The notes under the pieces: model-generated | Told to the model about the DNA's origin: nothing | Databases searched by the model: none | Seen by the model: the letters and a program-made list of their open reading frames with translations, nothing else | From: a virus | Strand: one strand, 5' to 3' | IMG/VR virus record: IMGVR_UViG_3300036893_000013 | Coordinates: 48,038-112,037 of that record | DNA: 64,000 bases | Translations under genes and position numbers: made by a program | In this document: positions 8,468 to 62,849 of the stretch, piece after piece | Layout: each line of letters opens with the position of its first letter | Position numbering within the stretch: position 1 is the first letter of the stretch

Positions 8468-8470
8468 ATT

Positions 8471-9580: not shown

Positions 9581-9588
9581 GGGTTTCC

Positions 9589-10260: not shown

Positions 10261-13200
10261 TTTAATTGTACCTGTTTGGCGATTAAGTTCCCACTCAGTC
10301 CAATTGGTGGAGGAAGCGGTACTGAGCTAAAGTTAGCTGTAAACGTAGAAGCTTGATTTAAAGAGAATTGAGGACATGGATTTATTGTGCCTACGCAAAC
10401 AGCACTACCTGATGCCCCGGACCACCCTGAAAAAGCATATCCCGGATTAGCCACTGGAGTGCATGGTCCGATCAATGTACCAGAAACATAAGAAGCTGTA
10501 GCACAATTTGTACCTGTAATATATCCGTTCGAAGCTATGGTAGTCAGGGAAACTCCGCTAGTAATTACCCATGTTCCACCTTCAACTGCTGAAGAAGTAT
10601 ATCCGGCTTGACATGCAATTACCCTCATCGTGGTTGTTGTTGAAAATGACTGTGCAGCATACGCAGGACTAGAACAGGTTGGTGCTGAGCCATCTAAAGT
10701 CATGAACATAGAGCAACCAGAAGTTGGAGAAGTCCAACTTACTGAAACAGGAGGAGTAGAGTAAGTGCCTGAATAGTTCGGTGGGTTTTGATAAGGATTC
10801 CCGCAAGTAGAAGTACCTCCCGTAAAAGTTGCAGTTACGGTGGTTGCAGTTGTCAAAACAAACGAAGGACATGGATTTGTTGTTCCACTGCAAGCAGCAT
10901 TGCCAGATACCGTCCATCCTGCAAAGGTTGATCCACCGGTGGCTGTTGCTGTCAAAGGACCTATAGTTGTACCTGATGTATAAGAACCTGTTAAAGAATT
11001 TGTACCAGTAATTGTGCCTGTTCCAGACCCAGAAGTTGAAACAGTTAAACTTACTAATGTACTTCCTCCAATAAGTGGATGTGGATACTGGGCAGGAATA
11101 TATGCAATAGTCCAAGTATTTGTAGAGGTACATTTGAACAACTCACCTTGTCCAAACCCATTGCCACTGCTATTCCAGTTCCCCTGATCTGTCGCCCAGT
11201 ACCCTACGCCTGTAGTGCAGCTAGAGGGCCGATTCGCTAATGCACCAAACCCAACACCGCATGTGTAATTTCCGGACCCTGCGTTACAAGTTGTTGAACC
11301 ATTAAATGGAACTGTTGTTGAAGTTTGTGCTGTTGGACCGGAGAGGCCCCCAGCCTTCCAATCGTCGGTGTAGAAATCACGATTTTGGATGGTCTGTCCA
11401 GCATAATTAGTCCCGAATTGTTGACCTAGAAATGAGGCGGGGGTAATGGTATCATCCCATTCATAAGCAGGATCAAGCACTTCGTTCATCGGCGCGGTTG
11501 GAGTTGGTACTGCCGCTCCTGAAATATAAGCCCCTTGCCCTCTTCCCCACTGATCTTCGCAAACCGTGGCCCGGATGATCTTATAAGTATCTCCGGGATT
11601 GTAAGAGGCCCCGTTGTTGATTTCGGCGTACATCGTCAGGGTGTTGTTAGTGTTGGATGTGATCTGCGCACCGAAGCTTTGCGTTGTATCGTAGAAGAAA
11701 TAAGGTGCGCCATAAGGTGCCCACTGATTAGTTGTCCAACTCTTCGACGTATCGGTAATCGTTGTTGTCCCGCCCCCAGTCAGCGTGCTTGAGACATAAG
11801 TCACATTGTCCACGGTATCGCCGGGATCGATTGAGGTCAATCCACCGCATGTTCCGAAAAAGGGGTTAGCTAGAGCAATACGGTAGGTCGTACCGTCCAT
11901 GATCTGGTTAAAGTAAGCTCCACCTGAACTAATACCGGTATTACCAAATGCAATCCCTGTACCACCCCTGAATGAGACAACAGCATCACCGCAATTTAAG
12001 GTACAAGTAAGCACATTTCCGTATGTTTCTGTATGTCTTCCAGACCTCGGTCTGCCAGTCGAATCTGTTCCGTGAACGGCTGTATAAGCAAAAGCGTTGT
12101 AACCTATCGAATGATTAAAGCGATTTACGACTCGGCATCCACCACTTTGGTTAACTGTGATACCAGCTTCGGTGCAATCATTGAATGTGGAACCATTTAA
12201 ATTAACCTGATTATTTTCTGCAAACCAGTTAGTCAATCCGCCGAAACTATCTGGTTGTGCCCATGAGTTATCGCCAAACTGTCCCACCCCGAGATAGGAG
12301 GACATCTGTGCGGTGTAAAGATGGTTTGAAAGACTACCTGTTGGGAGGGTGGAGTGATCTACAACTCCAATGGCATCATCCACTCGGATCATGTCCACTG
12401 TGTTATCGCCGTTGCCGGATTCAGTCCACTGCGTTGAAATGCCAAAACCGATGTTATCAACACGCACTTGAGGAAATCCGGCAGAAGTGGATGTTCCCTC
12501 GATAAATACCACTCCACCCAAACTCGTAGAACCGTTGATTGGGTCCAGATTCATACTCTCAAGTTTCGTTACATTACTAGTTCCATTATATGTAGGCTGA
12601 AGGAACCAGATAGGACCACTCGGATTGTTGGATTTTATCGTTAGAGTATTAGAACCTGATCCAAATGTTGATGTGCCTGTATTAGCACCTGCGTTTGGAC
12701 CAGTAATATCAATTGAAGCTGTTACTACTACATCAGTTGTCCACGTACAGGTGCCCGCAGGAATTGAAATAATATCTCCATTACAAGCAATATGGGCCGG
12801 TCCATTGATAGCTGAGTTGACATCGGATTGGTTGCAAGATGCAGCCGTGTAATTACCACATCCTGTAGAAGTACCGCTGGCACTGAGAGTTGCATTTGAA
12901 CTTAGTGTGCAGGAAGCTGTCCCCGTTCCTGAAACCCCGCTACAAGACCCAGTACCAGACCACCCAGAACTGAACGTATACCCAGCACTTGGCGTAAACG
13001 TGCATGGTCCAATAGAAGTTCCTGAAGCATATGTTCCAGTTGCACAATTAGCACCCGAAATTGTACCGTTGGTTGCGGTTACCACCAATGAATAATTAGT
13101 AGGTGTAGAGCCAGTACTTACAAAAGTAGTGATGCTTTGTGCAGGTATCGTGTAGGTGAATGACTGACTTGAAACGGTTATATTTGCCAACTGCTGAATA

Positions 13201-14474: not shown

Positions 14475-16504
14475 TATTGTAAAGCCACACTCACGTTGAT
14501 GAAATTTTCCGTGGTCCCAGTCGTCCATGTTGGGGTATAGAGTCCCGCTGATGCCTGCGTATAATGACCTCCCGCTTGGGTGGCTCCTGCCGAATTGGTT
14601 GCGTTTATATCGAACGAAAAAGGAGATGGAGCACTAAGAGCTACCCCAGCCCCTATTCCAATGAACGTGAGGACTAGAGAATTTGCTGCGGTAGTAGTAA
14701 GGGAAGAACCTGTACAACTGGACGAGCAGGAGGCCGTGCCGTAACTGGACAGCACGATCCCTGTTGTCGTGGCATTTGATATCTGTTCTAAGACTCCACC
14801 CATCCCAGCATAAGAAGTTGAGGTTCCTGATACTGTGACCGTACAAGAACCGGTGACATTTGCAACCCCTGTCCAGATTGACTGGCCCGAGGACCCGGTG
14901 GTTGGTGAACCCTGTGCAGTCCAAGTGGGTACACAACCTGAAGGCGTGTTCCATGCTGTAACGTTAATTCCAAGACCCCAAAGTACCAGCGTATTTCCAG
15001 TCGTGATTGATAATGTGACCGTGCTAGACGGATTTACACTGTAGGCTCCTACCACACCAGCAGCAGATACAAAAGTCGGATTACCGCCCCCTCCACCTGA
15101 TCCTCCACCAAGCACAATCCAAGTTCCGGAAGACCCATTACAAGCAACGAAAGCAAAATTTGATCCGCCACTAACATAAGTAGCACCAGAAATAGCGGAT
15201 GTTGAATCTGTAACTGTTGCGGTGGGCCAAGGTTGAGACATGCTACTGCTACAAGTAGGAATAGGATTTGATGAGGCATTGCCAGCGGTGTATGATATGA
15301 CACCGGGACCTGTACCAGCTATAACTACAGGAACATGGGCAGTCAGATCACCACTGTTGGTAATATTGTAATCGAAGGGTAGATATGAAGTGGCTGTTGT
15401 AGCTGTAGCCGCCATAACTCCATACCCGGCAATTTGGCCGGTAATAGAACCTGCGGGAGTACACCACGTACCGTTACCACACCAGACAGTTGAACCAGAG
15501 GCTCCGGTTCCCCCATTAAAATTAGCTATTTGTAGATTTCCTGTAACTCCACCAGCACCCGTCCCAGCTAGGTTAATTGCGGGAATAACCGAGGAGTTCA
15601 ACAATCCACTTGAAAGCTGTGGAATGTCTGAGCCTGAATTACCGACAGTATAACTTGTTCCCCACCCAGAACCAGTTGAGTTTGCAAGTCCGGCCCCGGG
15701 GTAGGTTGAAGAGGCGCAAGAAGAACAAGAAATACTAATACCTAAAGCAGTGGTGGTAATAGAAAGGGGAGAGTTGGCAGTAATATTTGTGCCTATATAG
15801 CTACCCAGATCATATAGTTGAGGAGCTATTAGACTTCCGGTAGGTTCTTCTCCTAGAAAATAAGCATGTCCAGTAGTGGTCTGGCCCGATACATAGGATG
15901 TAGTGTTAGCGCTGGACTGATAAGGAATAGAGCCTAAACTACCCCCAGCTAGTCCTCCGGCATATCCAGTGGTATTAGCACCATTGTTAGGGATATCTCC
16001 TGAAACTAAAGCTCCATAATTAGGAACACCGGCAGACCCAGTATGATTTCCCCATATATAATGAGCAGAAGTACTACCTAAAGAGAGGGTAACTCCTCCG
16101 ACAGAATCATTATTAGTGTAAAAACTTCCATCGCCGGAAACCGAACTAACTCCGGAACCAGAACCCCCTCCAGTATTACCAATCTGAACAATGGTATTGT
16201 TGCATTGACTATATGAAGAACAAACTTTCTCAACCACTCTTGTTCCGGTCTGAACGTAGTAACTATATACTCCGAATGCATTAGCAGGAAAAGGTTGAGT
16301 TAAAGGAGCGGTAAGTGCCTGATCAGAATAAACTGTTTGCGGTGTAGAACATTGTGCCAGCGAATTATATGTACAAACTGATATCTGAGCATTTGGGATA
16401 ATAGTAGCATAGTTACCGCCAGATTTGGTTATAGCAGTATTCCATCTCTGGGCAGACTGGCCTAGAAGCATGGTAGGAAATAATAGCAGCAATAAGTATT
16501 TCAT
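14474..16504 (-). CDS. Secreted fibre-like protein, YSDxALT N-terminal domain (copy 2)
   Basis: The 676-residue protein starts with a signal peptide (MKYLLLLLFPTMLLGQ) and shares its first ~115 residues with the next gene upstream: SAQRW, IIPNAQISVC, VYSDQALTAPLTQPF, FGVYSYYV and VVEKVCSSYSQC. The domain ends in IGNTGGG, followed by a Gly/Ser/Thr-rich fibre-type shaft and a C-terminal beta domain with several Cys pairs. The domain order (short N-terminal beta domain, shaft, receptor-type tip) fits a fibre or secreted adhesin. It is coupled by TAATG on both sides. Confidence 0.65.
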   Translation of the reverse strand: MKYLLLLLFPTMLLGQSAQRWNTAITKSGGNYATIIPNAQISVCTYNSLAQCSTPQTVYSDQALTAPLTQPFPANAFGVYSYYVQTGTRVVEKVCSSYSQCNNTIVQIGNTGGGSGSGVSSVSGDGSFYTNNDSVGGVTLSLGSTSAHYIWGNHTGSAGVPNYGALVSGDIPNNGANTTGYAGGLAGGSLGSIPYQSSANTTSYVSGQTTTGHAYFLGEEPTGSLIAPQLYDLGSYIGTNITANSPLSITTTALGISISCSSCASSTYPGAGLANSTGSGWGTSYTVGNSGSDIPQLSSGLLNSSVIPAINLAGTGAGGVTGNLQIANFNGGTGASGSTVWCGNGTWCTPAGSITGQIAGYGVMAATATTATSYLPFDYNITNSGDLTAHVPVVIAGTGPGVISYTAGNASSNPIPTCSSSMSQPWPTATVTDSTSAISGATYVSGGSNFAFVACNGSSGTWIVLGGGSGGGGGNPTFVSAAGVVGAYSVNPSSTVTLSITTGNTLVLWGLGINVTAWNTPSGCVPTWTAQGSPTTGSSGQSIWTGVANVTGSCTVTVSGTSTSYAGMGGVLEQISNATTTGIVLSSYGTASCSSSCTGSSLTTTAANSLVLTFIGIGAGVALSAPSPFSFDINATNSAGATQAGGHYTQASAGLYTPTWTTGTTENFINVSVALQ

Positions 16505-18309
16505 TAGTTTCCTAGATACTCCAGCTTATAGTGAACATCGTAACTTATGGTTCCGCTGGCCGTTACTAACGGAGTAATAGTAGTATTTACGGCTGCGTAG
16601 AAGACGGCACTGTACTGGTCCCACGCAGGAGCACTGGACCAGATATCGTTCCAAGTAAAGGTGTTGCCCGAAGTATGGGCATTTTGATAAGTAACTGTTA
16701 AAGTAGTATGGGGCGAACTAGTTTCACTAACCGCATTTACATAATATGTAAACCGATACATACCTGCTACGGGGGTGGCGTAGCCGGAGGGAGCATAAGT
16801 AGTTGTCTGAGCGGTAGCAGATAAAGATTGCACTATAGAAGAACTTGTGTATTGACTTATTGGAAAACCAACATAACTGCTGCCGTTCCAATAACATAGA
16901 TTTATTTGATTTGAGAAGGTTCCACCACCAACACTGCAATCAGTTGGAGTTTGACCGTCTGATACGAAACTTACCGATTGGTAAGCTGATCCCGGATTTG
17001 GTAGTCCCGCTATGTTTGTAATATAATTTAGGTTCGGCCAGTTAGGACTTATACCTAATGTATTTAGTGTAGAATTGTAATATAATGGGGGTTGAACTAG
17101 TAAATTTGAACTGCTTGGGGGAGCAGTTCCTGTATAATGAACTTCAAGACCCATTAGGGGAATATATATACTGCCCTGTCCATTACAGCAGCGGGAGGCA
17201 TTCATTTGAATAGCTGAATAGTTTGTAGGTAGGGCACTAAAAGCAACAGAAACTTGCCCCAACGGATAGTCTAGAGCAGGCTGTGAAGCTCCATTAACTC
17301 CTTGAAGCATAGAAGCTCCACCGGGGATGGTTCCGCCACCAGCACTATTTACCCACATACCCTCGAATTCGGAGTTTGCCATGCTAGAGGCTGATATCAT
17401 AAAAGCATATACAGCCGTTATGTTAGATTGAGTAACATAAGAAGGTAATGTAAAATTCGATACCGTAATACCAGAACTCCCTGTACCGTCTACAAGTCCT
17501 CCAAAATATTGTCCAGCAGCATTCTGATAGCAAATAGGATTCGCACCTATACCAGTGTTGGTAATTGTACAACTTGTTCCAAATACTAGCACGTACTGGC
17601 CTGTACCTTGTGGTACATATTGGGTAGCTAAGTTGGAAGCTGCTACATATGCACTTAAATCTCCTCCACTATCGCTTTGGAAAGTTACAGCTACATTTCC
17701 TGTTGGAGGGGTTGGGGTAGTATCATTAAAGTTCAGCAGGACTTGATCTGTAAGATTGGTTCCATTATGCTGTAAAACAAGTTGTTTAGCGCACCCGGAA
17801 GTAGTAGCTCCTCCTAAAGAATCTATACAGAGAAGAGAACCAGAAGAACCTATAGTCCCAGATGAGAGTAGTTTACTGTCAGTTCCTTGAACACTATAGC
17901 TACTTCCCCAAGCTGTACCTGTAGAAACGGGAACTCCCGCTGGGGGATAGACCATACTTCCATTTCCGGTATTGCCTATATAAACATCGTAAAAACTACA
18001 TTGATTATATGGCGCACATACTTGCTCAACTACATGAGTTCCGCCATCGACATAATAGCTATATACCCCTACTCCATTTGCAGTAAGAGGTTGAGTAATT
18101 CCTTGGGTCAAAGCCGGGTCAGAATATATAGAAATTTGACTTATACAATTAAGAGAAGAGTTCCATTCACAAACTGTAATTTCTGCGTTGGGAATAACAG
18201 TAGAAAAATTACTGCCTGAAGCAGGTACCGTTGCTGTACTCCATCTCTGGGCAGACTGACAAATTCCGGAAAGTGGAAAAAGTAGAAACAACAGCAAAAG
18301 CTTATTCAT
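16504..18309 (-). CDS. Secreted fibre-like protein, YSDxALT N-terminal domain (copy 1)
   Basis: The 601-residue paralogue of the following gene has signal peptide MNKLLLLFLLFPLSGICQ and the same N-terminal domain (SAQRWSTA, VIPNAEITVCEWN, IYSDPALTQGITQPL, VGVYSYYVDGG, VVEQVCAPYNQC, IGNTGNG). The rest diverges: a shorter shaft, then a 140-residue C-terminal beta region (FTYYVNAVSETSSPHTTLTV...YDVHYKLEYLG) resembling fibre tips. Pairing of two divergent tips on one shared N-terminal domain suggests alternative receptor or glycan specificities. The ATG overlaps the preceding small membrane gene by 8 bases. Confidence 0.65.
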   Translation of the reverse strand: MNKLLLLFLLFPLSGICQSAQRWSTATVPASGSNFSTVIPNAEITVCEWNSSLNCISQISIYSDPALTQGITQPLTANGVGVYSYYVDGGTHVVEQVCAPYNQCSFYDVYIGNTGNGSMVYPPAGVPVSTGTAWGSSYSVQGTDSKLLSSGTIGSSGSLLCIDSLGGATTSGCAKQLVLQHNGTNLTDQVLLNFNDTTPTPPTGNVAVTFQSDSGGDLSAYVAASNLATQYVPQGTGQYVLVFGTSCTITNTGIGANPICYQNAAGQYFGGLVDGTGSSGITVSNFTLPSYVTQSNITAVYAFMISASSMANSEFEGMWVNSAGGGTIPGGASMLQGVNGASQPALDYPLGQVSVAFSALPTNYSAIQMNASRCCNGQGSIYIPLMGLEVHYTGTAPPSSSNLLVQPPLYYNSTLNTLGISPNWPNLNYITNIAGLPNPGSAYQSVSFVSDGQTPTDCSVGGGTFSNQINLCYWNGSSYVGFPISQYTSSSIVQSLSATAQTTTYAPSGYATPVAGMYRFTYYVNAVSETSSPHTTLTVTYQNAHTSGNTFTWNDIWSSAPAWDQYSAVFYAAVNTTITPLVTASGTISYDVHYKLEYLGN

Positions 18310-18601
18310 TCTTTTTACCCTTAAGGATGTTTAATATATCAGTAATACTGCCCGATGCCCTGTTAACTCCATAAGGAGCAGTAAAGAAAAGAACCAGCGC
18401 AGAAATTATTAAAGGAATTGCCGCTAACCATGAGTTGAGTATAACCACATCCGTGATTTTTATTATGTGATCAAATACTTCTATAAGGATATAAGATGAA
18501 ACTATAGCAAGAATTGTACTTAGGACACGACTACTCGATCCATTTCCGTTATCTGAATACACAGATTGGAAAAAAGCACAGAATTTACTTAGAAAGTTCA
18601 T
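18302..18601 (-). CDS. Small two-TM membrane protein (holin-like candidate)
   Basis: This 99-residue protein has a polar N-terminus, a first hydrophobic helix (~27-45, VLSTILAIVSSYILIEVF), a short turn, a second helix (~58-75, WLAAIPLIISALVLFFTAP) and a Lys-rich tail (LKGKKNE). Two helices with a charged C-terminus fit class II holins, and it is one of few holin candidates in the window. No endolysin is adjacent; its neighbours are secreted adhesins. It could equally be an export helper for those proteins. Function is inferred from topology only. Confidence 0.5.
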   Translation of the reverse strand: MNFLSKFCAFFQSVYSDNGNGSSSRVLSTILAIVSSYILIEVFDHIIKITDVVILNSWLAAIPLIISALVLFFTAPYGVNRASGSITDILNILKGKKNE

Positions 18602-18609
18602 AAATTTCC

Positions 18610-19875
18610 TTACGGTAGCGTGACTGTTTGCGCGGGAATGGTAACTGTAATGGGACTTCCGCTCGTCTGAATTGTCAGTGTTTGGGCTGGAATACTTAAA
18701 CTGGCGGGTAGGGTTACTGGAATGTTGATCGTGTAGGACACTATCGAGGTTGATGATTCGGTGTCGCCGGGTGCCGTTGCATAAGCTGCGATGCTTTCGT
18801 TCTGACCTACTGTAAGCGGCTTGGTATAGATCGTCTCTGCTGCGCCGTTGACACTGTAATAGATGGTTGCGCCGGGAGTTGTGTCCGAAATAGTGACTGT
18901 TTGTGCCAAAGTGTAAGTGCCCGGTCCCGGTAAAAAAGTCGGTGTATCAACCGTTGGTGCAGGGGCTGCAACAGAACCCGTTGTATAACTGAATTGACGG
19001 ATGACAAGAGGGGTAACGGCTCCGTAAGGAGTATCCGAAGTGCCTGCTGTTAATCCGGCATAAGCTGTACTTCCACCTACCAACGAAGGAATGTTTACGT
19101 TGGACCAAGTGTACGTAAAACATCCAGACCCGGGGCACGATCCACCAGCACTTACATCGTAGAGATTAAGCGTTACATTTGAGCCGTCGTAGCTAATAGT
19201 TGCTGAATAGGTGTCCCCTGTACTTGTATCACTTGAGGATACAGGAGAATTCAAAGAAACAGGAGCGGTGCTGATTTTGCTTAGAGCGTAATCAGTAGAG
19301 ACTGGAGCGGGGATACACGGCGATTGATTACTTGAGTAGATTTGTGTGCTACTGTGACTAAACACAAAAGGATACGGAGCACTTGCTGATAGGGTGCTGG
19401 CAGAGTCTAGTTCAAGAGCAAATACATTATTTGGCTCTGGGTTAGGTGGTGTTTCCTGATATCCGAATGCCTGATAAAATCCCGCTTCGCATCCTGCTCC
19501 AGCCGTGAAGGTTCCACCCTCTGCTGAATTTGTACCCGGCTGATTATTCGTGTTATTCAGAAGAAAAGCCACGTTAGCCCCATCTGGAATAAACTCAAAG
19601 CTGGCAACGAAATTGTTGACAGGTAGGGGTTTCTGGTATATAAGTGAAGTCGATCCATGACCAGACGGCAGTCCAACCATAGTCAAAGCTGATCCAGATA
19701 TACCTGAATTGTTCTGTGGTGAATTTAGATAGAAGGGAAAGTTTCCAAACCCACCTTGTACACTAACAGCACAAACTGCTGCGGGGACTGTATTAAAGCC
19801 AGAACAATTAAACCCGGTCTGACCATACACATACACAGGAAGAGATAGTATAAAAAGTAGTATAAAATTTTTCAT
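18610..19875 (-). CDS. Secreted L-type lectin-like protein with chitobiase-C-like tail (copy 1)
   Basis: The 421-residue protein has signal peptide MKNFILLFILSLPVYVYGQ, then an L-type lectin-like fold: SGHGSTSLIY, FEFIPDGANVAFLLNNTN, PEPNNVFALELD, YSATISYDGSNVTLNLYD, NIPSLVGG..AYAGLTAGT. Residues ~305-385 match the CHB_HEX_C pattern (FLPGPGTYTLAQTVTISD, GATIYYSVNG). The tail (SIPAQTLTIQTSGSPITVTIPAQTVTLP) is a Thr-rich repeat. It is a paralogue of 3630-4847 and sits next to a tail-adaptor paralogue, as that copy lies near the other adaptor. Probable role: carbohydrate binding at the host surface. Confidence 0.75.
   Translation of the reverse strand: MKNFILLFILSLPVYVYGQTGFNCSGFNTVPAAVCAVSVQGGFGNFPFYLNSPQNNSGISGSALTMVGLPSGHGSTSLIYQKPLPVNNFVASFEFIPDGANVAFLLNNTNNQPGTNSAEGGTFTAGAGCEAGFYQAFGYQETPPNPEPNNVFALELDSASTLSASAPYPFVFSHSSTQIYSSNQSPCIPAPVSTDYALSKISTAPVSLNSPVSSSDTSTGDTYSATISYDGSNVTLNLYDVSAGGSCPGSGCFTYTWSNVNIPSLVGGSTAYAGLTAGTSDTPYGAVTPLVIRQFSYTTGSVAAPAPTVDTPTFLPGPGTYTLAQTVTISDTTPGATIYYSVNGAAETIYTKPLTVGQNESIAAYATAPGDTESSTSIVSYTINIPVTLPASLSIPAQTLTIQTSGSPITVTIPAQTVTLP

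Positions 19876-38406: not shown

Positions 38407-38407
<1 letters not shown>
38009..38407 (-). CDS. SprT-like zinc metallopeptidase
   Basis: The 132-residue protein has QTILHEQIHIYISPYCGHGK at residues ~93-112, i.e. an HExxH zinc motif followed by CGHG..F, typical of SprT-like peptidases. The upstream beta strands (YGIVGIDSEGQQCIILDRGT) fit the usual order. SprT/Spartan proteins cut DNA-protein crosslinks; phage homologues are common but uncharacterised. The short length indicates a single peptidase domain. It lies in the same operon as secreted proteins and is coupled by TAATG. Confidence 0.75.
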
Positions 38408-38766
<359 letters not shown>

Positions 38767-38771
38767 AATTC

Positions 38772-38800
38772 ATTATACCATCTATTTCTTTATTTGTCAA
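38772..38800 (-). promoter_or_regulatory. Consensus sigma70 promoter, leaderless start of the 38766 gene
   Basis: On the minus strand TTGACA (38800-38795), a 17-base spacer and TATAAT (38777-38772) are perfect. The ATG begins 6 bases after the -10 hexamer, where transcription should start, so the mRNA should be leaderless or nearly so. Confidence 0.85.
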
Positions 38801-38804
38801 CTAG

Positions 38805-39236
38805 TTAGTTGTTTCCGTAGTTGTAATAATAAAGGCTTCCACAAGTACTACAGTTGTTTCCGTAGTTGTAATAATAAAGGCTTCCACAAGTACAGTAGTT
38901 TCCAGAACACCAACCGCAAGAGCAGGTAATATTTCCGGAGGAGGTAATATTTCCGGGAATACCAGAGAAAACACCCGGGAGGATATAAGATTTAGGAACA
39001 ATGAACTTATAATCTTCCGAAAACTGGTACCCAAACTCCCATCCCGATTTCTTTTCTATGTATTTATGTTGGATATAAGTATTCCAGTCGTCGGAAGCTT
39101 TTTGTGCTCTAACTAAATCATCATGTTTGTTTTTGCTGAGAACTTGATCCTGTGGGGATAGCTCTATTACTTTAGCCGTTTGAGCCGGAAGTATTGTACT
39201 CACCAGCAAAAATAGTATTTTTATCATTTTTGTCAT
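38805..39236 (-). CDS. Secreted protein with Cys/Tyr-rich 15-residue C-terminal repeats
   Basis: The 143-residue protein has a hydrophobic N-terminus (MTKMIKILFLLVSTILPAQ) acting as a signal peptide, a helical charged middle (LSKNKHDDLVRAQKASDDWN) and a C-terminal CxxC-Tyr repeat (CGSLYYYNYGNN, twice, preceded by ITCSCGWCSGNYCTC). The 45-base DNA period encodes the 15-residue repeat. The Cys content suggests disulfides in the periplasm or outside the cell. Confidence 0.55.
   Translation of the reverse strand: MTKMIKILFLLVSTILPAQTAKVIELSPQDQVLSKNKHDDLVRAQKASDDWNTYIQHKYIEKKSGWEFGYQFSEDYKFIVPKSYILPGVFSGIPGNITSSGNITCSCGWCSGNYCTCGSLYYYNYGNNCSTCGSLYYYNYGNN
38808..38893. repeat. Two-copy 41-bp direct repeat (period 45)
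   Basis: Positions 38808-38848 and 38853-38893 are identical 41-base copies separated by four bases. They encode the two C-terminal CGSLYYYNYGNN units of the secreted protein, showing recent internal duplication. Confidence 0.95.
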
Positions 39237-45187: not shown

Positions 45188-45214
45188 ACCCCTGCTTCGG
45201 CAGGGGTTTTCTTT
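45188..45214 (+). terminator. UUCG intrinsic terminator of the first early operon
   Basis: Stem ACCCCTGC/GCAGGGGT, loop TTCG, followed by TTTCTTT. It ends the operon from 41337. Confidence 0.85.
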
Positions 45215-45359: not shown

Positions 45360-45388
45360 TTGACAGCCGCGCTCGGGTCCGGTACGAT
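45360..45388 (+). promoter_or_regulatory. Sigma70-like early promoter for the VWA-TerC operon
   Basis: TTGACA, 17-base spacer, TACGAT. First translated feature downstream is a 4-codon ORF at 45435 after a strong GGAAGGAGG. Confidence 0.75.
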
Positions 45389-45434
45389 CGGATCGGCGCG
45401 CAAAATTTTTTGCGTAGGGAAGGAGGTAGCATAA

Positions 45435-45553
45435 ATGCCCAGACTTTAGCTTTTCTTGGCATTAGAAGCCAGAATGTTAATACTGCCCAAATCTTGAATC
45501 TCATTCAAGAAGCGCTGGGCGGGGGTGATCATTTTTCCTTCCACTCTGAATGA
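45435..45553 (+). pseudogene. Strong ribosome site, 4-codon ORF and possible frameshifted 39-aa frame
   Basis: GGAAGGAGG precedes ATG 45435, but the frame is only MPRL then TAG (45447-45449). In the -1 frame the sequence stays open to 45553 and reads LAFLGIRSQNVNTAQILNLI... Either the gene has a frameshift (natural, programmed or an assembly error), the four-codon ORF is a leader peptide, or translation starts at a rare codon. No classic slippery heptamer is present. Confidence 0.4.
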
Positions 45554-45566
45554 GCACCATCATTCT

Positions 45567-45690
45567 GATCGAGATAGGCGCAAGGCTGAGATGCCTGTCG
45601 CATTCGCCTAATCGCAGAGGACACGGGCGAACCTGCCCGTGAAATGCGGAGTACCCAAGGGTACGCGGTTCCAATCCCGCATGAAAAGAG
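45567..45690 (+). ncRNA. Putative structured leader RNA
   Basis: Upstream of the 45697 gene are several stems: AGGCG...CGCCT enclosing AGGC/GCCT; CACGGGC/GCCCGTG (45622-45641); an outer ATGCGG/CCGCAT stem (45644-45682) containing a GTACCC/GGGTAC hairpin (45651-45664). No tRNA fits. This could be a riboswitch or processing element; a simpler hairpin leader of related type lies at 53709-53755. Confidence 0.4.
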
Positions 45691-45696
45691 GTTTTT

Positions 45697-45840
45697 ATGA
45701 AATTGCGAGCGTTTCTCTTAGGGATGCGAGAATTCCGGCAAAGCTTTACCACGCGCATCGAAGGCGAAGCCGAAATGTCTTACGAATATGGACGCGAGTG
45801 GGCGCACCGTTTAACCTTTCGACGTTTCGAATCTCACTAA
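45697..45840 (+). CDS. Small early protein (47 aa)
   Basis: ATG 45697 is preceded by AGAGG. The 47-residue protein contains RAFLLGMREFRQSFTTRIEG and SYEYGREWAHRLTFRRFESH, the kind of small conserved protein often seen in phage genomes. It is chosen over the overlapping +1 frame, which is Arg/Cys-rich and lacks a good ribosome site. Unknown function. Confidence 0.55.
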   Translation: MKLRAFLLGMREFRQSFTTRIEGEAEMSYEYGREWAHRLTFRRFESH

Positions 45841-45995
45841 ACATATCCGCACGATTCTTGAACTCTCCCGTTTTGGCTTCATGGTGGAGATGTTGTTTGT
45901 ATTGCGCTTGTTGAATCGACCAAGGAGGTGATGCTAAGCATATAGCAGGTAATGGTTTACCTGAAATCTCAACTAACAACTTTAGGAGAATCAAA

Positions 45996-46646
45996 ATGTT
46001 GGAAGTACAAGGTAGTAATGTCATCGTTGGGATTGACCGGTCTGGATCGATGGATACCAGAGATGTTGAAGGTCAGTCACGCTACAACTTTTTGAAAGAG
46101 AAGTTGATAGCATTTGTAGGAGAAGCAGTAAAGAGTGCGGCTAACAATCAGGTTACCGCAATCTTCTTCAGTAGCGGAATTCACGATTTAGTACTACGGA
46201 ATTCTTCCGACGCTGAAGCTGCTTTCAACAAGTACCCGGTAGGTGGTAGCACTGCCACCGATCTTGCGATAAACGAGGCTTTGCGTGTCTACAAGGCTAA
46301 CCCCTCAATCCCAGTTCTGTTCTTTTTGGTAACGGACGGTCATCCAGACGACCAAACTCTGGTTGATCGGGCCATCATCAATGTTACCAAGCAGATCACC
46401 CAACCGGAAGACTTCCGTATCATGATTCTGACAGTTGGTCAACGTGATGCGAATCTGACAGCATGGTTGGAACATCTGGATGCCGATTTGGGTCCTGCTG
46501 GAGCCAAGTACGATATTGTGGGGGTCAATAACCTGCAAGAAGTTGATTTCAAAGAGGCTGCGGCTGAACTAATTGCCAGCACAACTACAAACGATGAAGC
46601 TACAGCCGGTGCTACAGCAGGTAAGACAACCCACCGCATCGACTAA
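45996..46646 (+). CDS. VWA-domain protein (TerY/TerF-like)
   Basis: The 216-residue protein is one VWA domain: MIDAS DRSGSMD at residues 14-20, Thr in GGSTATD (~85) and Asp in VTDGHPDD (~114). The architecture (short N-terminus, MIDAS intact, C-terminal acidic tail) resembles TerY/TerF proteins of tellurium-resistance systems, which bind metal and other Ter proteins. The following two genes code for a two-TM peptide and a TerC-like membrane protein, making a Ter-type module. Role in this phage is unknown. Confidence 0.8.
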   Translation: MLEVQGSNVIVGIDRSGSMDTRDVEGQSRYNFLKEKLIAFVGEAVKSAANNQVTAIFFSSGIHDLVLRNSSDAEAAFNKYPVGGSTATDLAINEALRVYKANPSIPVLFFLVTDGHPDDQTLVDRAIINVTKQITQPEDFRIMILTVGQRDANLTAWLEHLDADLGPAGAKYDIVGVNNLQEVDFKEAAAELIASTTTNDEATAGATAGKTTHRID

Positions 46647-46655
46647 AATTAAACC

Positions 46656-46676
46656 GGGGGCTACTATGTAGCCCCC
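46656..46676 (+). promoter_or_regulatory. Intra-operon hairpin between VWA and TerC genes
   Basis: Stem GGGGGCTA/TAGCCCCC with loop CTATG. There is no T-run, so it likely protects or attenuates rather than fully terminates. Confidence 0.5.
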
Positions 46677-46692
46677 ACCCAAAGGAGGTAAA

Positions 46693-46836
46693 ATGAAAAT
46701 GAACCTAAGGTTGGCTAGGCTACTGGTTGCTATTGCTTGCTTGCTGGTTGCGAGTCTAGTTTTCAGAGTTAGCTCGTTTGTGATCGTTGCCCTTTTTTTA
46801 GGAGCTTTAGTTAGCTTTCTGGCGTGGAGGAAGTAA
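46693..46836 (+). CDS. Small two-TM protein (47 aa)
   Basis: ATG 46693 follows AAAGGAGGTAAA. The 47-residue product is nearly all hydrophobic (LLVAIACLLVASLVF, then FVIVALFLGALVSFLAW) with a basic end. Stop overlaps the TerC-like ATG. Probably a membrane partner of the TerC-like protein. Confidence 0.65.
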   Translation: MKMNLRLARLLVAIACLLVASLVFRVSSFVIVALFLGALVSFLAWRK

Positions 46837-47378
46837 TGATTTTAGTATTCGTAGCCGTAGTCTTCTTGGATGTGATTTTATCGGGAGACAATGCCCTCGT
46901 AATCGGGGCTGCGGCTAATACTCTCCCCAAAACAGAACGGAATATAGCTATTGTATTCGGAATGGTGCTGGCTGCTGCGACTAGAATACTTCTTTCTTTA
47001 TTTGCTGTATCTCTACTACACTATAGGTTGGTAGGATTTGTAGCTGGTCTTACTCTTATGTTTGTTGATGGCATTCTACTTAAGGGTATAGTAGAGAATA
47101 ACTTACAAGCAAAGGAGCCGAAACAAGGAAAAACATTTTGGAACACTATTGGAATCATTGCCTTATCTGATATCAGTATGTCTCTCGATAACATTCTTGC
47201 TGTAGCAGGAGTAGCTAGAAATCATCCCGTCATAATGAGTTTAGGTTTGATATGCTCTATTGCTTTTGTAGGGTTTGGAGCAAAACTAGCCAGTTCTCTA
47301 CTGGAGAAGTGGAAGTTCTTAAATTGGGTAGCTTTTGTACTGATACTTTTCGTTGCTTTGGAGTTGATTTGGAGTTAA
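46836..47378 (+). CDS. TerC/YjbE-like integral membrane protein
   Basis: The 180-residue protein has several TM helices and the family signatures VVFLDVILSGDNALVIGAAA at residues ~8-27 and SDISMSLDNILAVAGVARNH near residue 120 (DN motifs of TerC transporters). It is shorter than TerC but typical of the YjbE subgroup (manganese-exporting family). Start ATG 46836 overlaps the small TM gene by TAATG. It is very rare in a phage; possible roles are metal homeostasis, envelope stress or superinfection exclusion. Confidence 0.85.
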   Translation: MILVFVAVVFLDVILSGDNALVIGAAANTLPKTERNIAIVFGMVLAAATRILLSLFAVSLLHYRLVGFVAGLTLMFVDGILLKGIVENNLQAKEPKQGKTFWNTIGIIALSDISMSLDNILAVAGVARNHPVIMSLGLICSIAFVGFGAKLASSLLEKWKFLNWVAFVLILFVALELIWS

Positions 47379-47387
47379 GGAGGAGAA

Positions 47388-47576
47388 ATGAGAAAGCAGG
47401 AACTGATCACTGAGATAGGGCAGGTAGTACATAACTGCTTGGAAGTAAACGACAACAAAACCGTTCACTATACTTGCGCTACGGTGTCAGGTAGACAGGC
47501 GAAGAATCCCATCATTACGGTTAAGATAGGGGGGATTTTGAGAACATGGACGATAGTGGAGGAAGAATGCAAATAA
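47388..47576 (+). CDS. Small early protein (62 aa)
   Basis: The 62-residue protein (LITEIGQVVHNCLEVNDNKT, PIITVKIGGILRTWTIVEEE) is a helix plus beta hairpin with no motif. Strong GGAGG site. Unknown. Confidence 0.5.
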   Translation: MRKQELITEIGQVVHNCLEVNDNKTVHYTCATVSGRQAKNPIITVKIGGILRTWTIVEEECK

Positions 47577-48297: not shown

Positions 48298-48690
48298 ATG
48301 AAACTTTCAGAAGCCATTTTGTTGGGGGACACACTGAGGGAGAGGGCGTCCCATGACTACTTGTATACGTGCAATGGTAAGGTGTGCGGATGCGCTCTCG
48401 GAGGAGCCTTACTATCTAGTGGTTTTACTATGGCAGACTTCCGAATTTCCATTTCCGGAATGTCGCCAACTGACATTATTAGACGCTTCTGGCCTTGGTT
48501 TACTCCAGAACATAACCGGCACATATCAGTCAAGTTCAGTAAGGTTTGTAACGGCAAAATGAGTATGGAACAACTGGTTGACTATGTTCGTTCTATAGAA
48601 CCCGAAGAACGTGAAGAACTTGAAGAACCTGAAAGTGAAAAACTCGGAAAGGAGAGAAATGGACAAGAAACAGTTGTTGAAACTCGCTAA
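48298..48690 (+). CDS. Cysteine-motif early protein (CNGKVCGCALGG)
   Basis: The 130-residue protein starts MKLSEAILLGDTLRERASHD and has YTCNGKVCGCALGGALLSSG, a Cys-rich helix start similar in style to the CLAGW/CLGVLC families. A Glu-rich C-terminal repeat (EEREELEEPESEK) follows. Strong GGAGGAG site. Unknown. Confidence 0.5.
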   Translation: MKLSEAILLGDTLRERASHDYLYTCNGKVCGCALGGALLSSGFTMADFRISISGMSPTDIIRRFWPWFTPEHNRHISVKFSKVCNGKMSMEQLVDYVRSIEPEEREELEEPESEKLGKERNGQETVVETR

Positions 48691-49066
48691 CTTTATGGAG
48701 AAAGTACCTTCAGAAAAATTTAACATGAGTGCATTTGCTATAACTGAACTTGACGACTGCACTACCGCGAAGCAAATGTTAAAAGGCTGTGATACTGCGG
48801 CTTGTTTAGCTGGTTGGACTGTATTGATGCGTGGATATTGTGTCACAAAAGATGAATACGCGAAGAGAAAACACAGAAAAATGCTAAGTATATCAGAAAG
48901 GGCAGCAAAGATACTTCGGTTGGATGTGGAGGAAGAAGAGAAGTTGTTTTATGTGTCGTATTGGCCTCCAGAGTTTCGCCAAAGATTCTATTCTCTGCCG
49001 GACACTGACACCAGACTACAGATAGCCATTGATTTACTCAGATACTTAGCTCAAGGGGGACTATGA
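48659..49066 (+). CDS. CLAGW-family protein 1
   Basis: The ATG at 48659 overlaps the end of the previous gene. In 135 residues: LLKLANFMEKVPSEKFNMSA, then CDTAACLAGWTVLMRGYCVT, then a helical C-terminal half (ERAAKILRLDVEEEEKLFYV). The order ‘LA-F-x-EK(V/L)P...C-x-x-x-x-C(L/I)AGW’ recurs in 51843-52388 and 57234-57677, and a related form in 60381-60854. Unknown function; the conserved Cys pair may bind a metal. Confidence 0.6.
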   Translation: MDKKQLLKLANFMEKVPSEKFNMSAFAITELDDCTTAKQMLKGCDTAACLAGWTVLMRGYCVTKDEYAKRKHRKMLSISERAAKILRLDVEEEEKLFYVSYWPPEFRQRFYSLPDTDTRLQIAIDLLRYLAQGGL

Positions 49067-51782: not shown

Positions 51783-51788
51783 ACCATG

Positions 51789-51830
51789 CTTTCAACCGCT
51801 TTTCAACCGCTTTTCAACCGCTTTTCAATC
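51789..51830. repeat. 11-bp tandem repeat CTTTTCAACCG
   Basis: Four tandem copies (first and last shortened) lie just upstream of the 51843 start. It may influence translation or simply be slippage-generated. Confidence 0.8.
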
Positions 51831-51842
51831 AAAGGAGAATTT

Positions 51843-52388
51843 ATGATTGTCTTTGAAGAAGTTGAACCTGTAGTTGAACCTATTGAAGTTGAACCTATTG
51901 AAGTTGAACCTGTAGCAACGAAAGCAGAAAAACTGCTAGCGTTAGCTGACTTCATCGAAACCCTTCCTCCAGAGAAATTTGAAATGTCATACTGGATAAA
52001 AACAACGTGGTTATCCTCAATTTCGGAAATTTCGGAGCCAAAGAGAACGACAGTATATTTCGATTCAGATGAAATGAGGAATCTTTGTGGGGCAACCGCA
52101 TGTTTGGCTGGCTGGGCTGTGCTTAGCGCCGGTTTCAAAGTAAACTCAAATGCGACTGTTGCCAAAACAATGTTTAATGGACAGAACAATATACAAGAGG
52201 TAGCAATAGAGCTTTTGGAATTAAACAGGTTGGAGGCCCACAAATTGTTCATCTCAAAACAGTGGCCAGATCAGTTTGTACCTAAGAGAAACCTTTTGCC
52301 TCCTCTTATGGACCACGCAGTATCCGGGAGTATAACTCCTCAACTAGCCGCAGCGAGGGTAAGACACTTCGTTGTAGAAGGAGAGTAA
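51843..52388 (+). CDS. CLAGW-family protein 2 with VEP repeats
   Basis: ATG 51843 follows AAAGGAGAATTT. The 181-residue protein begins VEPVVEPIEVEPIEVEPV (DNA-level 15-base repeats) and has ALADFIETLPPEKFEMSYWI, LCGATACLAGWAVLSAGFKV, and a helical tail. Paralogue of 48659 and 57234 proteins, with an added N-terminal repeat. Unknown function. Confidence 0.6.
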   Translation: MIVFEEVEPVVEPIEVEPIEVEPVATKAEKLLALADFIETLPPEKFEMSYWIKTTWLSSISEISEPKRTTVYFDSDEMRNLCGATACLAGWAVLSAGFKVNSNATVAKTMFNGQNNIQEVAIELLELNRLEAHKLFISKQWPDQFVPKRNLLPPLMDHAVSGSITPQLAAARVRHFVVEGE

Positions 52389-52579
52389 TGCTCTTTTTAT
52401 GCGCGGAAAGTCCATTGGAAGAAAAGCCCCTGTTCATCCAGTGGACAGATGATGCCAAACTAAAATACTTTCTGGAAGATTGGGAAATAGTTGATCTCGA
52501 AGAGGGTAAGATAGTTTGGAGGGGAGATGTAGCATTAACCCTTGAAGAACCAGAAGATGAAATGGAGATGATGACATGA
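52388..52579 (+). CDS. Small acidic protein (63 aa)
   Basis: 63-residue protein, acidic (ALTLEEPEDEMEMMT at the end) with a short beta centre. ATG overlaps the preceding stop (TAATG), and its stop overlaps the next ATG. Unknown. Confidence 0.5.
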   Translation: MLFLCAESPLEEKPLFIQWTDDAKLKYFLEDWEIVDLEEGKIVWRGDVALTLEEPEDEMEMMT

Positions 52580-53073
52580 CAAGAACTGAAATTATTACCG
52601 AGTGGGTTAGGCGACTTCGGAGTGGAATCAAACAGGGCCGCGAGTACCTTAGAACAACTGTGGATGGACAGGATTACTACTGCTGTCTGGGAGTGCTTTG
52701 TGAGATGGCAGTAGAACAGAAGGTAATACCACCTCCGGTCAAAGTCGGGATGGATTGGTTGGGGTGCAAGTGGGAAACAATTCTCATACGTATATTTCAC
52801 GGACTTCCGTCCGGGTACTATAGGTATGAGGGGAATGGTCGCACACTACCCCCAACTGTCTCACAGTGGGCTGGGGTTACGCCGCGCGGTGAGGGGTATG
52901 GAATAGCTTCTCTTGCAAGGCTAAATGATTGGGATCACTTTGATTTTAACCAGATAGCTAACGTAATTGAAGACAGCCTGATAGCTCAGGAGTTTAACCA
53001 GATAGCTGACGTAATTGAAGGCAGCTTGGCAGACGAGGAGCTGGCGACGCAAGCGCCGAAGGATCGGATTTGA
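52576..53073 (+). CDS. CCLGVLC-family protein 1
   Basis: 165-residue protein: WVRRLRSGIKQGREYLRTTV, then YYCCLGVLCEMAVEQKVIPP, then LPPTVSQWAGVTPRG and LARLNDWDHFDFNQIANVIE. Its order matches 58071-58445 and 58432-58809. The CCLGVLC element recurs widely in phages (recalled). The C-terminal NQIAxVIE segment is duplicated in this copy. Function unknown. Confidence 0.6.
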   Translation: MTRTEIITEWVRRLRSGIKQGREYLRTTVDGQDYYCCLGVLCEMAVEQKVIPPPVKVGMDWLGCKWETILIRIFHGLPSGYYRYEGNGRTLPPTVSQWAGVTPRGEGYGIASLARLNDWDHFDFNQIANVIEDSLIAQEFNQIADVIEGSLADEELATQAPKDRI

Positions 53074-56843: not shown

Positions 56844-57237
56844 GGACTATTTACCTTCGATCATGTCTGAAGGGTTGAAGCCCTCGCCAGAAAACATGTG
56901 GAAAGTAACGTCTTTTGGGAAAGAAATAGAAAGCACAGAAGAATCTCAGTGCTGTGTATATCTAACTGCATCTAAACAAATTGCAGAGGGTTTTGCAAGA
57001 GGAAAAACTCAGTATTTGAGGACTAAACCGGGAAATTACTTTACCTTCTTTTTTATTAAACCAAACGGAGAAATAGCAACAAAATTCATGCGTAAAAAGC
57101 TAAACACGCCGGTGTTAACCACCTCACCTGTAGTTTTGAAAATCGACATGGATTACCCAACAGAAACAGACCCACACACGACATACGGTAGTATATATAG
57201 GGGTATTATTCCCCCACAACAGATAGGAGAATTATGA
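56818..57237 (+). CDS. ADP-ribosyltransferase-like protein
   Basis: ATG 56818 begins MLYYHGTVRDYLPSIMSEGL, the YHGT start of the ART/Tpt1-like fold (HGT, then Ser-Glu-Gly-Leu). The 139-residue chain continues with CCVYLTASKQIAEGFARGKT (the Tyr-x-Thr/Ser strand and helix) and ends SIYRGIIPPQQIGEL, a pattern common in compact phage and bacterial ADP-ribosyltransferase-like proteins. It may modify host RNA polymerase, tRNA or other targets. Catalytic Glu is not obvious, so this stays a candidate. Confidence 0.55.
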   Translation: MLYYHGTVRDYLPSIMSEGLKPSPENMWKVTSFGKEIESTEESQCCVYLTASKQIAEGFARGKTQYLRTKPGNYFTFFFIKPNGEIATKFMRKKLNTPVLTTSPVVLKIDMDYPTETDPHTTYGSIYRGIIPPQQIGEL

Positions 57238-57677
57238 ACAAAAATACGAAACGTAAGTTGGAAAATCTAGCTGCTTTCATCGAGAAATTGCCGAGGAAAG
57301 CCTTTAACATTAACATCTGGGCGAAAAACAACAAACGTCACTTCGATTCGGATGGAAAGATAGTCCCCAGAAATATTGTCAGTAAAAAAGACTTGAATAA
57401 CTTAGAAGAATGCGGGACTACTTGCTGCATAGCTGGATGGCAAGTTGTAAGAAAGGGCTTTTCCGTAACAAACTTGGGAACAGTGAGTAAGGGTGGAAAA
57501 TTCATCAACTCAGCGCCAATTCTAGCAGCAGAACAGTTAGGACTAAATCTGGATGAGAGCAGCGCTTTGTTCTATCCTAGAGAGAGTAAGCTTAGGGTTT
57601 TAACAGGAAAAACCTTCACCAATACCCCGAAGGGCGCAGCAAAACGTATCAGATACTTTATCAAAAATGGAATATAG
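57234..57677 (+). CDS. CLAGW-family protein 3
   Basis: 147-residue paralogue of 48659 and 51843: LENLAAFIEKLPRKAFNINI, EECGTTCCIAGWQVVRKGFS, AAEQLGLNLDESSALFYPRE. The CxxxxCIAGW motif is conserved with an extra Cys. Coupled to the ART-like gene by ATGA. Unknown. Confidence 0.6.
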   Translation: MNKNTKRKLENLAAFIEKLPRKAFNINIWAKNNKRHFDSDGKIVPRNIVSKKDLNNLEECGTTCCIAGWQVVRKGFSVTNLGTVSKGGKFINSAPILAAEQLGLNLDESSALFYPRESKLRVLTGKTFTNTPKGAAKRIRYFIKNGI

Positions 57678-58070: not shown

Positions 58071-58445
58071 ATGAGTGAAATGAGTGAAATACGTGCAAAG
58101 TGGGTTGCGGCATTAAAAAGTGGCGAATATAGTCAAACCAGAGGTATGTTACGTAGAAGAGATGGTTTCTGCTGCTTGGGAGTTCTTTGTGACCTCGCTG
58201 TTAAAGAGGGAATTATACCAGAGCCAACTTTAAGCGTTGGAAATAAAATTTACTCTTATGATGAGGAGGCTGGGGTACTTCCGGTAAAGGTACGAGAGTG
58301 GGTTGGGTTAAGTGATGTTCATGGTAACTACGCAACATCTTCACTAATAACAGACAATGACGGCGGTAGAAGTTTTAATGTAATCGCTGAAATTATCGAA
58401 AGCGAACCTAAAGGTTTATTTAAGGAGAACAATGAAGCTAAGTAA
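58071..58445 (+). CDS. CCLGVLC-family protein 2
   Basis: 124-residue protein: WVAALKSGEYSQTRGMLRRR, GFCCLGVLCDLAVKEGIIPE, VLPVKVREWVGLSDVHGNYA, NVIAEIIESEPKGLFKENNE. Adjacent to a second tandem copy, overlapping it by 14 bases. Unknown function. Confidence 0.6.
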   Translation: MSEMSEIRAKWVAALKSGEYSQTRGMLRRRDGFCCLGVLCDLAVKEGIIPEPTLSVGNKIYSYDEEAGVLPVKVREWVGLSDVHGNYATSSLITDNDGGRSFNVIAEIIESEPKGLFKENNEAK

Positions 58446-58809
58446 TCAACAAAAAGTAATTAACAAATGGGTCCGCGCTCTTAGGAGCGGAAAGTATAAA
58501 CAAACTGAGAGCTATCTTCAAAACGAGAAAGGCTTTTGCTGCCTAGGAGTGCTGTGCGAACTGGCTGTAAAAAAAGGAGTAATCTCTCCCGCTAAAAAAA
58601 CAGGCGATTTTTATACCTATGCTAAGAAGGCTGATATTCTACCTATAAAAGTAAGAAAGTGGGCTGGGCTAAAGCAAAATGATGGGTATTTTAAAGGCGA
58701 GGACGGCCCCACCACCCTTACTATGTTAAATGACCACCAAGGAAAAACTTTTAAAGAAATAGCCGATGTTATTGAGAGCAAGCCTCAAGGTCTTTTCAAG
58801 GAAGAATAA
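58432..58809 (+). CDS. CCLGVLC-family protein 3
   Basis: 125-residue tandem copy: WVRALRSGKYKQTESYLQNE, GFCCLGVLCELAVKKGVISP, ILPIKVRKWAGLKQNDGYFK, EIADVIESKPQGLFKEE. Its closeness to the previous gene suggests recent duplication followed by divergence. Confidence 0.6.
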   Translation: MKLSNQQKVINKWVRALRSGKYKQTESYLQNEKGFCCLGVLCELAVKKGVISPAKKTGDFYTYAKKADILPIKVRKWAGLKQNDGYFKGEDGPTTLTMLNDHQGKTFKEIADVIESKPQGLFKEE

Positions 58810-61827: not shown

Positions 61828-62010
61828 ATGAGTAAAAAGAGCCAATTGCACACTAATTTAAAGATCGCTAAAGAAAAAACACTTAAAGCCATTAAAAGTG
61901 GGGTAGCGCTAGAAAGGCACAAAAGAACACATAGAGGTACTTTTGACCCCAATTGTCCTGCGTGTTTGGAGTTGACTTGTAAGATGAACTGTAGTACTAT
62001 GGAGGAATAA
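61828..62010 (+). CDS. Small leaderless-start protein with Cys cluster (60 aa)
   Basis: 60-residue basic protein starting MSKKSQLHTNLKIAKEKTLK, with a C-terminal NCPACLELTCKMNC zinc-like cluster. ATG at the predicted transcription start; no Shine-Dalgarno sequence. Its stop overlaps the next ATG (TAATG). Confidence 0.55.
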   Translation: MSKKSQLHTNLKIAKEKTLKAIKSGVALERHKRTHRGTFDPNCPACLELTCKMNCSTMEE

Positions 62011-62849
62011 TGATAAAAATTACAAACATTTGGGGTGAAGGGGAAGTTAAGTACAAAAGTTTTGTATTTTCCGGTGGGGAAGTACAGGTTAAGTTAGAAG
62101 AAGAAGATACACTTTATGAATTATATTATAAACCGTTACCGTTACGTTACAATCTTACCGCCCATCTGACTAACTCTAATGATATCTTTGAGTTGGCTCT
62201 ATTAGCAGACGCGCTAAGACGTAGACACGGCAAGTCTTTGGAGCTATGCCTTACTCTTCCTTATGTACCATACGCTAGACAAGATAGAGCTATGACGGAT
62301 GGGGAGAGTCTAGCCCTTAAGGTATTTGCAAACTTCCTTAACTCGTTAAAGTTTGATAGCGTAGAGGTATGGGATGTACACAGCGACGTGGCTTTGGCTC
62401 TGATAGACAGATCGCGTAACAAACCTGCGGAGGACCTATTTACCTCTAGGGTCATCACAGAAGCCGTTAGGGGGTCTAGTCTGGTATCTCCAGATGCCGG
62501 AAGCCTAAAGAAGGTAAACAAAATAGCTCAAAAGTTTGGAAGGCCAGTTATACAGGCTTCTAAAAACAGGTCAGTAACCGATGGAAGTATTACCGGTACG
62601 GTGGTATATTCCGAACATCTTGGGGATAAGAACGTCCTTATTGTCGATGATATCTGTGACGGGGGAAGAACCTTCATTGAGTTAGCTAAAGAACTAAGAC
62701 AGTTAACTACAGGTAAGATAGACCTTTATGTAACACATGGAATTTTTTCTAAGGGTTTAGACGTACTGTTTGAGCACATAGACACTGTATACTGTGCCGT
62801 GCCGTTCCCTAGCGTAGATCGCAGTAACCCTAATTTGGTTGTGTTATGA
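62010..62849 (+). CDS. prs: Ribose-phosphate pyrophosphokinase-like protein (PRPP synthetase or Adps-type)
   Basis: 279-residue protein with PYVPYARQDRAMTDGESLAL (residues ~87-106), VWDVHSDVALALIDRSRN, and the PRPP-binding loop NVLIVDDICDGGRTF (~209-223). These are the hallmarks of PRPP synthetases; the chain is slightly shorter than the bacterial enzyme. Phage versions often pair with nicotinamide phosphoribosyltransferases to make NAD; the related Adps enzyme instead acts on ADP-ribose in NAD+ reconstitution (NARP1). No partner is seen before the right edge. It is the second gene of a leaderless-start operon. Confidence 0.85.
   Translation: MIKITNIWGEGEVKYKSFVFSGGEVQVKLEEEDTLYELYYKPLPLRYNLTAHLTNSNDIFELALLADALRRRHGKSLELCLTLPYVPYARQDRAMTDGESLALKVFANFLNSLKFDSVEVWDVHSDVALALIDRSRNKPAEDLFTSRVITEAVRGSSLVSPDAGSLKKVNKIAQKFGRPVIQASKNRSVTDGSITGTVVYSEHLGDKNVLIVDDICDGGRTFIELAKELRQLTTGKIDLYVTHGIFSKGLDVLFEHIDTVYCAVPFPSVDRSNPNLVVL

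Follow-up and report, generated by a model that had tools for sequence, protein, structure and literature searches.

A compact VWA-TerC unit in a phage accessory block and its recurrence in other viral genomes

What might a phage gain from a TerC family membrane protein encoded just behind a VWA-domain protein? The question is raised by a locus in the window, by which we mean the whole 64,000-nucleotide stretch analysed, the last 64,000 bases of the 112,037-base virus record IMGVR_UViG_3300036893_000013. Phage Ter modules are already in print: the available sections of PMC7824862 describe, for jumbo phages and their relatives, abbreviated Ter operons for which competition with superinfecting phages was proposed, and TerC is listed in P. 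syringae phages in those of PMC11256456. On this known kind of module, what is new here is the recurring VWA-TerC pair, a small peptide, a twister-like leader and a possible association with Namat-like genes.

The unit, its proteins and its leader

The features of the locus, in window positions, are these.

45188-45207, + strand: terminator-like hairpin ending the upstream gene block (8 pairs, 6 of them G-C)
45360-45388, + strand: promoter-like TTGACA-17-TACGAT after an A/T tract, 608 bases before the VWA start
45395-45995, + strand: untranslated leader of about 600 nt, folding better than shuffles (z -2.81, 20 shuffles)
45613-45680, + strand: match to the type-P5 twister ribozyme family (RF02684) at 43.7 bits, above the gathering threshold of 37.6
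45996-46646, + strand: VWA-domain protein, 216 aa, MIDAS intact, C-terminal tail conserved and predicted to be disordered
46656-46676, no strand assigned: perfect palindrome or intercistronic hairpin, between VWA and peptide
46693-46836, + strand: hydrophobic peptide, 47 aa, strong Shine-Dalgarno sequence, no relatives found
46836-47378, + strand: membrane protein of 180 aa in the YjbE subfamily of TerC, its ATG overlapping the peptide stop
47388-47576, + strand: next gene of the run, own Shine-Dalgarno sequence, 9 bases 3' of TerC, no Pfam family
62010-62849, + strand: PRPP-synthase-like protein (PF13793, 1.2e-9), listed for context and lying outside the unit, with 34% identity to the presumed Adps of SPbetaL1

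All three open reading frames of the unit were confirmed, each with a Shine-Dalgarno-like sequence read from the DNA (AGGAGA, AAAGGAGGT and GGAGG). The best TerC start is the ATG at 46836, whose A is the final base of the peptide's TAA. With its tightly spaced reading frames and this TAATG overlap, the locus does form one compact unit in a phage genome, as the initial annotation had it. Since the spacing is so close and no strong + strand terminator lies inside the unit, co-transcription of VWA, peptide and TerC is likely. The unit sits near the start of a + strand block, and the VWA gene belongs to an accessory block, not the virion block. PADLOC gave no match.

A search with TerC and VWA family profiles matched both families. 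The membrane protein, read earlier as TerC/YjbE-like, belongs to TerC, YjbE subfamily, and not to some different family: it matches Pfam PF03741 at E 9.3e-38 (130.2 bits, cut-off 27.8) and NCBIfam TIGR03717 (YjbE) at 146 bits (cut-off 134.8), and falls in PHROG 7180, category moron/auxiliary metabolic gene/host takeover. Across 64 aligned rows of the family D18, N19, D112, D118 and N119 are invariant, and D12 and S116 nearly so; the window's protein keeps these Asp/Asn motifs of both halves (D12, D18, N19, D112, S116, D118, N119). Its structure model (pLDDT 83.8) has 7 helices, and the family is described as having seven TM segments and exporting Mn (PMC12096827, in part). Searches of the PDB found no sequence relative of the protein, and no fold match to the model at E <= 0.001, against which to check the metal site. 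With the Bacillus TerC proteins YjbE, MeeY (YkoY) and MeeF (YceF) it shares the family, the acidic motifs and the seven helices; it differs from them in having a VWA partner, and a search for the manganese riboswitch (yybP-ykoY) upstream of the unit found none. A tblastn search of 50,697 phage records found relatives in 46, none reaching 60% identity and 37 of them named Pseudomonas.

The VWA protein had been called MIDAS-intact, and so it proves. Pfam PF00092 matches above its cut-off (E 5.3e-9, 37 bits against 23.8), and D14, S16, G17, S18, T86, T113, D114 and G115 are invariant in all 15 aligned VWAs. The structure model (pLDDT 83.0, residues 197-216 below 50) drew 173 PDB matches by Foldseek at E <= 0.001, with VWA domains making up most of the top rows (best E 1.9e-8). 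By tblastn, relatives occur in 10 of 50,697 phage records, all Streptomyces. The closest comparison is with a 71.7-kb viral contig, L028 (IMGVR_UViG_3300009093_000004), where VWA and TerC lie adjacent and in the same order, without the peptide; its TerC is 42% identical and its VWA 61%, over 216 of 216 positions without a gap. Because codon differences number 68, 53 and 133 of 216 at positions 1, 2 and 3, the VWA is, as judged by its codons, under purifying selection between the two phages. Residues 184-216 are more conserved (identity at 27 of 33 positions, compared with 105 of 183 in the remainder; Fisher 0.011) despite the low pLDDT of residues 197-216, so that this segment is likely a binding tail. 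Searches for absent genes are imperfect here: in one VWA family search the window's VWA itself went undetected, the sole hit being another, weak VWA of this phage (at record position 12630), and therefore nothing is concluded from that search's misses. That second protein (L008, 12612-13325) scores 16.9 bits, below the cut-off. The nearest plasmid VWA (32%), on a Calothrix plasmid (L175, 6001-8977), precedes a dynamin-family gene.

What of the small peptide and the hairpin before it? The 47-residue peptide has no Pfam family, and tblastn against 50,697 phage records gave nothing for it at E 0.1; in 18 other loci that carry a VWA, the stretch separating VWA from TerC holds no TM-like small reading frame. 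The notion of the peptide as a shared part of the module is thus unsupported; the trio originally proposed is reduced to a VWA-TerC pair, which does recur in other phages. The nearest counterpart is an unrelated-looking hydrophobic 57-aa reading frame before the vWA of Acinetobacter phage 313. The perfect palindrome had been correctly read and is the only match of its kind, GGGGGCTAC-TAT-GTAGCCCCC, against none in 100 shuffles. As no T-run follows on the + strand, it is, from its letters, an intercistronic hairpin and not a + strand terminator. A different hairpin follows the VWA of L028 (z -3.05 and -2.69).

The unit was also credited with its own promoter, and here the evidence is divided. 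A simple promoter scan returned 6 sites against 5.5 expected, which is the chance rate. The site at 45360-45388, however, belongs to a narrower class (A/T tract, TTGACA, 16-18 bases, TANNNT) found 6 times on the + strand of the 112-kb record, where 40 first-order simulations gave a mean of 0.275. This promoter class, and the unit's place near the start of its block, suggest early expression. Within the leader lies the sole twister match over the cut-off in the record (for twister ribozymes, see the available parts of PMC6154101 and PMC7761336). Compared with type-P5 twister ribozymes it carries two double letter changes from the Rfam consensus, G,C to A,U at positions 9/48 and C,G to A,U at 38/53; by our own reading of the alignment, which goes beyond the Rfam structure line, both would keep pseudoknot pairing. 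It also departs from the type by an A, not U, before the presumed cleavage site (A-A where U-A is required); of 15 viral twister sites found by pattern, 12 have U at this place and 3 have C. The idea that a twister match is characteristic of Ter modules in phages was rejected, since all 20 other loci searched (18 with VWA-TerC) lack one. Twister-P5 matches occur in viral contigs irrespective of Ter, 10 of 14 pattern-found contigs having Rfam matches (23 in total). Some contigs carry several within about 10 kb: 7 in L215, 6 in L213 and 2 in L216.

The pair in other viruses and its relation to Ter systems

Is the pairing peculiar to this phage? Single-sequence viral scans with TerC and VWA gave no matches, nor did a genome scan with TerC alone, and a profile scan was needed. 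Applied to IMG/VR it gave 66 viral TerC loci, in which partner genes were sought with purpose-built HMMs. A VWA accompanies TerC in 16 of them (L028, L029, L033, L045, L049, L050, L052, L053, L070, L074, L080, L081, L082, L086, L088 and L089). The other 50, some of them incomplete, have TerC and no detected VWA, so the VWA is not obligatory for TerC. In 80 bacterial TerC loci (about 5 kb each, the best 80 of at least 575) VWA, TerD and TelA were all absent; being the best of at least 575 and nearly all alphaproteobacterial, these loci tell little of bacterial ter operons.

The comparison with L028 bears on how the pair came to be where it is. Among the called proteins of the window's phage (G000), the L028 contig matches VWA, TerC, the NAMPT-like protein and the PRPP-synthase-like one, and beyond these it gives just four weaker hits (E 3e-12 to 2e-4), one of these over 101 residues of a 697-aa virion-block protein (E 2e-4). 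Our capsid and terminase candidates, assigned from size and place, have no match on that contig. Since the contig otherwise matches so few proteins, the pair has, by this comparison, moved between mostly unlike phages. The two loci have in common the C-terminal VWA tail, the gene order and a hairpin after the VWA, and both genomes carry PRPP-synthase-like and Namat-like genes; the L028 locus differs in lacking the peptide and any twister match, and in having its Namat-like gene just upstream.

In a TerC tree of 64 rows the window's protein pairs with that of L028 (100/98), away from the Otagovirus-type clade and on the side where most of the bacterial rows fall, though the join is between long branches, and removing either one leaves the other weakly placed beside single bacterial rows. 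The VWA label requires 4 changes on this tree, at least 3 of them forced by starred branches. The pairing, read from the tree, is therefore one that arose or was kept on several TerC branches, gain being indistinguishable from loss. What the sequences do show is a YjbE-type TerC coupled in one tight run to a MIDAS-intact VWA, and the recurrence of this pairing in mostly unlike phages.

How far is this a Ter system? The module had been typed as one of tellurium resistance. The resemblance to Ter holds, but the VWA falls below the cut-off for the TerF-type vWA (PF10138; 18.2 against 29.4 bits), and TerD, TelA and TerB have no match in the 112-kb record, which may be incomplete. On these grounds the module is, by its gene content, abbreviated and Ter-like and falls short of a complete Ter operon. 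With the ligand-binding parts of Ter missing from the record, a sensing half would come from the host or be nonexistent. Phages PPSC2 and phiPsa374 (Otagovirus) have the order TelA-vWA-TerC-TerD, and Acinetobacter phage vB_AciJM_313 has TerD, a 57-aa reading frame, vWA and TerC; shared by all three and the window's phage is VWA before TerC on the same strand. Compared with these abbreviated modules and the jumbo-phage cases of PMC7824862, the window's unit lacks TerD and TelA and its VWA is not TerF-type, while it adds the 47-aa peptide and the leader with the twister match. Loci L029 (IMGVR_UViG_3300045450_000055) and L033 (3300025920_000046) read VWA-TerB-TerC, with TerB (PF05099) between, and share with the window's phage a general VWA over the cut-off, not of TerF type, followed by TerC. 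In L028, L029, L033 and L053 neither TerD nor TelA was detected in the locus; no TerD was found on their contigs either, and TerB was found on 2 of the 4.

Genes for NAD near the pair

The window's phage and several of its counterparts carry genes that may restore NAD. The available text of PMC12774641 reports that the Namat of SPbetaL1 counters NAD depletion; the protein taken as Adps is encoded just before it. Besides the Adps-like protein listed above, the window's phage encodes, outside the window at record position 349-2730, a protein 54% identical to SPbetaL1 Namat. The clamp residues R40, F392 and Y396 of that Namat read K, Y, Y here and R, Y, Y in L028. The gene (L008, 349-2730) is split by an intein-like insert beside clamp residue 392, starting CVSVDTP and ending GYLSHN before T.

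One might propose, therefore, that the module is a membrane arm of a phage counter-defence acting on NAD and ADP-ribose, alongside NARP1-like rebuilding of NAD+ by Adps and Namat; it might, for example, keep the membrane or the balance of ions steady during NAD shortage. The arrangement in L028, where 441 bases lie between the end of the Namat-like gene and the VWA that follows, is consistent with such a role, as is the enrichment of NAMPT/Namat-like genes with the pair: they occur on 12 of 16 VWA-TerC contigs against 2 of 34 TerC-only contigs (those of at least 20 kb, 16 shorter ones being left out), with a Fisher value of 1.1e-6, uncorrected for relatedness or for length of contig, and within 10 of 16 VWA-TerC loci against 1 of 50 TerC-only loci. 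Macro-domain genes occur in 9 of the 16 VWA-TerC loci, and in L029 a NUDIX gene (PF00293) lies directly before the VWA. However, 10 of the 12 positive contigs form one Otagovirus-like group, and 3 of 6 lineages by our grouping are represented. NAMPT-like genes occur in 1,914 of 50,697 phage records, so that chance neighbours are possible, and longer contigs carry more genes. The window's phage has its Adps-like gene some 15 kb from the unit; its Namat-like gene comes within some 17 kb only on a circular record. Nor does any mechanism join VWA-TerC to Adps or Namat. The available parts of a survey of viral NAD/ADP-ribose functions (PMC9503650) make no mention of TerD, TerB, tellur or TelA, and we found no publication whose title or abstract links Ter modules to Namat. 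We consider this membrane arm unlikely. More doubtful still is its elaboration, in which the repeatedly paired VWA and TerC would be a minimal device for NAD counter-defence, with a self-trimming leader and tuning by a phage-specific two-TM peptide.

What the pair may do

We think it somewhat more probable than otherwise that the unit is an early membrane module that moves a divalent metal and protects the infected cell. TerC would move Mn2+ or a similar divalent ion; the VWA, on the cytoplasmic face with a divalent ion at its MIDAS, would dock on or gate TerC, with its conserved disordered tail a likely contact. The envelope of the infected cell might then be protected by exclusion of a second phage or by stress tolerance. 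The peptide may be a phage-specific addition, perhaps a regulator of TerC, and the leader, through its twister-like element, might shorten the message at its 5' end.

Could the pair instead be weakly selected cargo of host origin, useful only as a general tolerance gene? TerC was absent from all 10 sister records searched, all of them possible fragments (8 at 81-94% and 2 at 52% identity in the capsid candidate), and the genes flanking the unit are mostly unshared with these phages, which argues for variable acquisition; most viral TerC genes, moreover, lack a VWA. The purifying selection on the VWA, the pairing kept across phages and the tight fit in the transcription unit speak against cargo, and we hold it, too, to be unlikely. 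More remote is metalation by TerC of phage proteins exported through Sec. TerC proteins of B. subtilis are described as metalating exported enzymes at SecYEG (PMC10550928 and PMC12096827, each in part), and by a simple rule 7 of 135 reading frames in the record are signal-peptide-like, an unusual number, in the virion region, one of them with a GH30-like domain. But each of five sister records encodes 3-5 proteins of this sort and yields no TerC match, while the phage of L028 has VWA-TerC and no signal-peptide-like reading frame among 98, and we judge this role very improbable. Slightly less probable again is a MoxR-VWA arrangement, in which the VWA would serve as a co-chaperone of assembly and TerC would be an unrelated neighbour. 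MoxR-VWA pairs are reported in jumbo phages (PMC7824862), but AAA_5, the MoxR partner, was sought in the record without a match, the VWA lies outside the virion block, and VWAs recur beside TerC.

Some other features of these genomes deserve mention. The signal-peptide-like reading frames lie at window positions 3630-19875 and 38407-39236 on the - strand, with starts ending ..Q, and more are seen by eye. Repeated small accessory proteins with CCLGVLC/ACLAG motifs, also recognized by eye, form two families (52576-53073, 58071-58445 and 58432-58809; 48656-49066, 51786-52388 and 57234-57677), some of them copied in a sister phage. In a distant sister phage the capsid-candidate gene and the sequence behind it hold four matches to group I introns (L024, 8268-10515).

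What, then, does the early membrane module, if that is what it is, contribute? Phage Ter genes have so far been listed as tellurite resistance or as possible exclusion factors, and a minimal set has been wanting. The VWA-TerC pair, without TerD, TerB or TelA, is the smallest unit worth expressing. If the link to Namat-like genes survives correction for kinship, it would tie the Ter stress system to a known answer of phages to NAD-depleting immunity.
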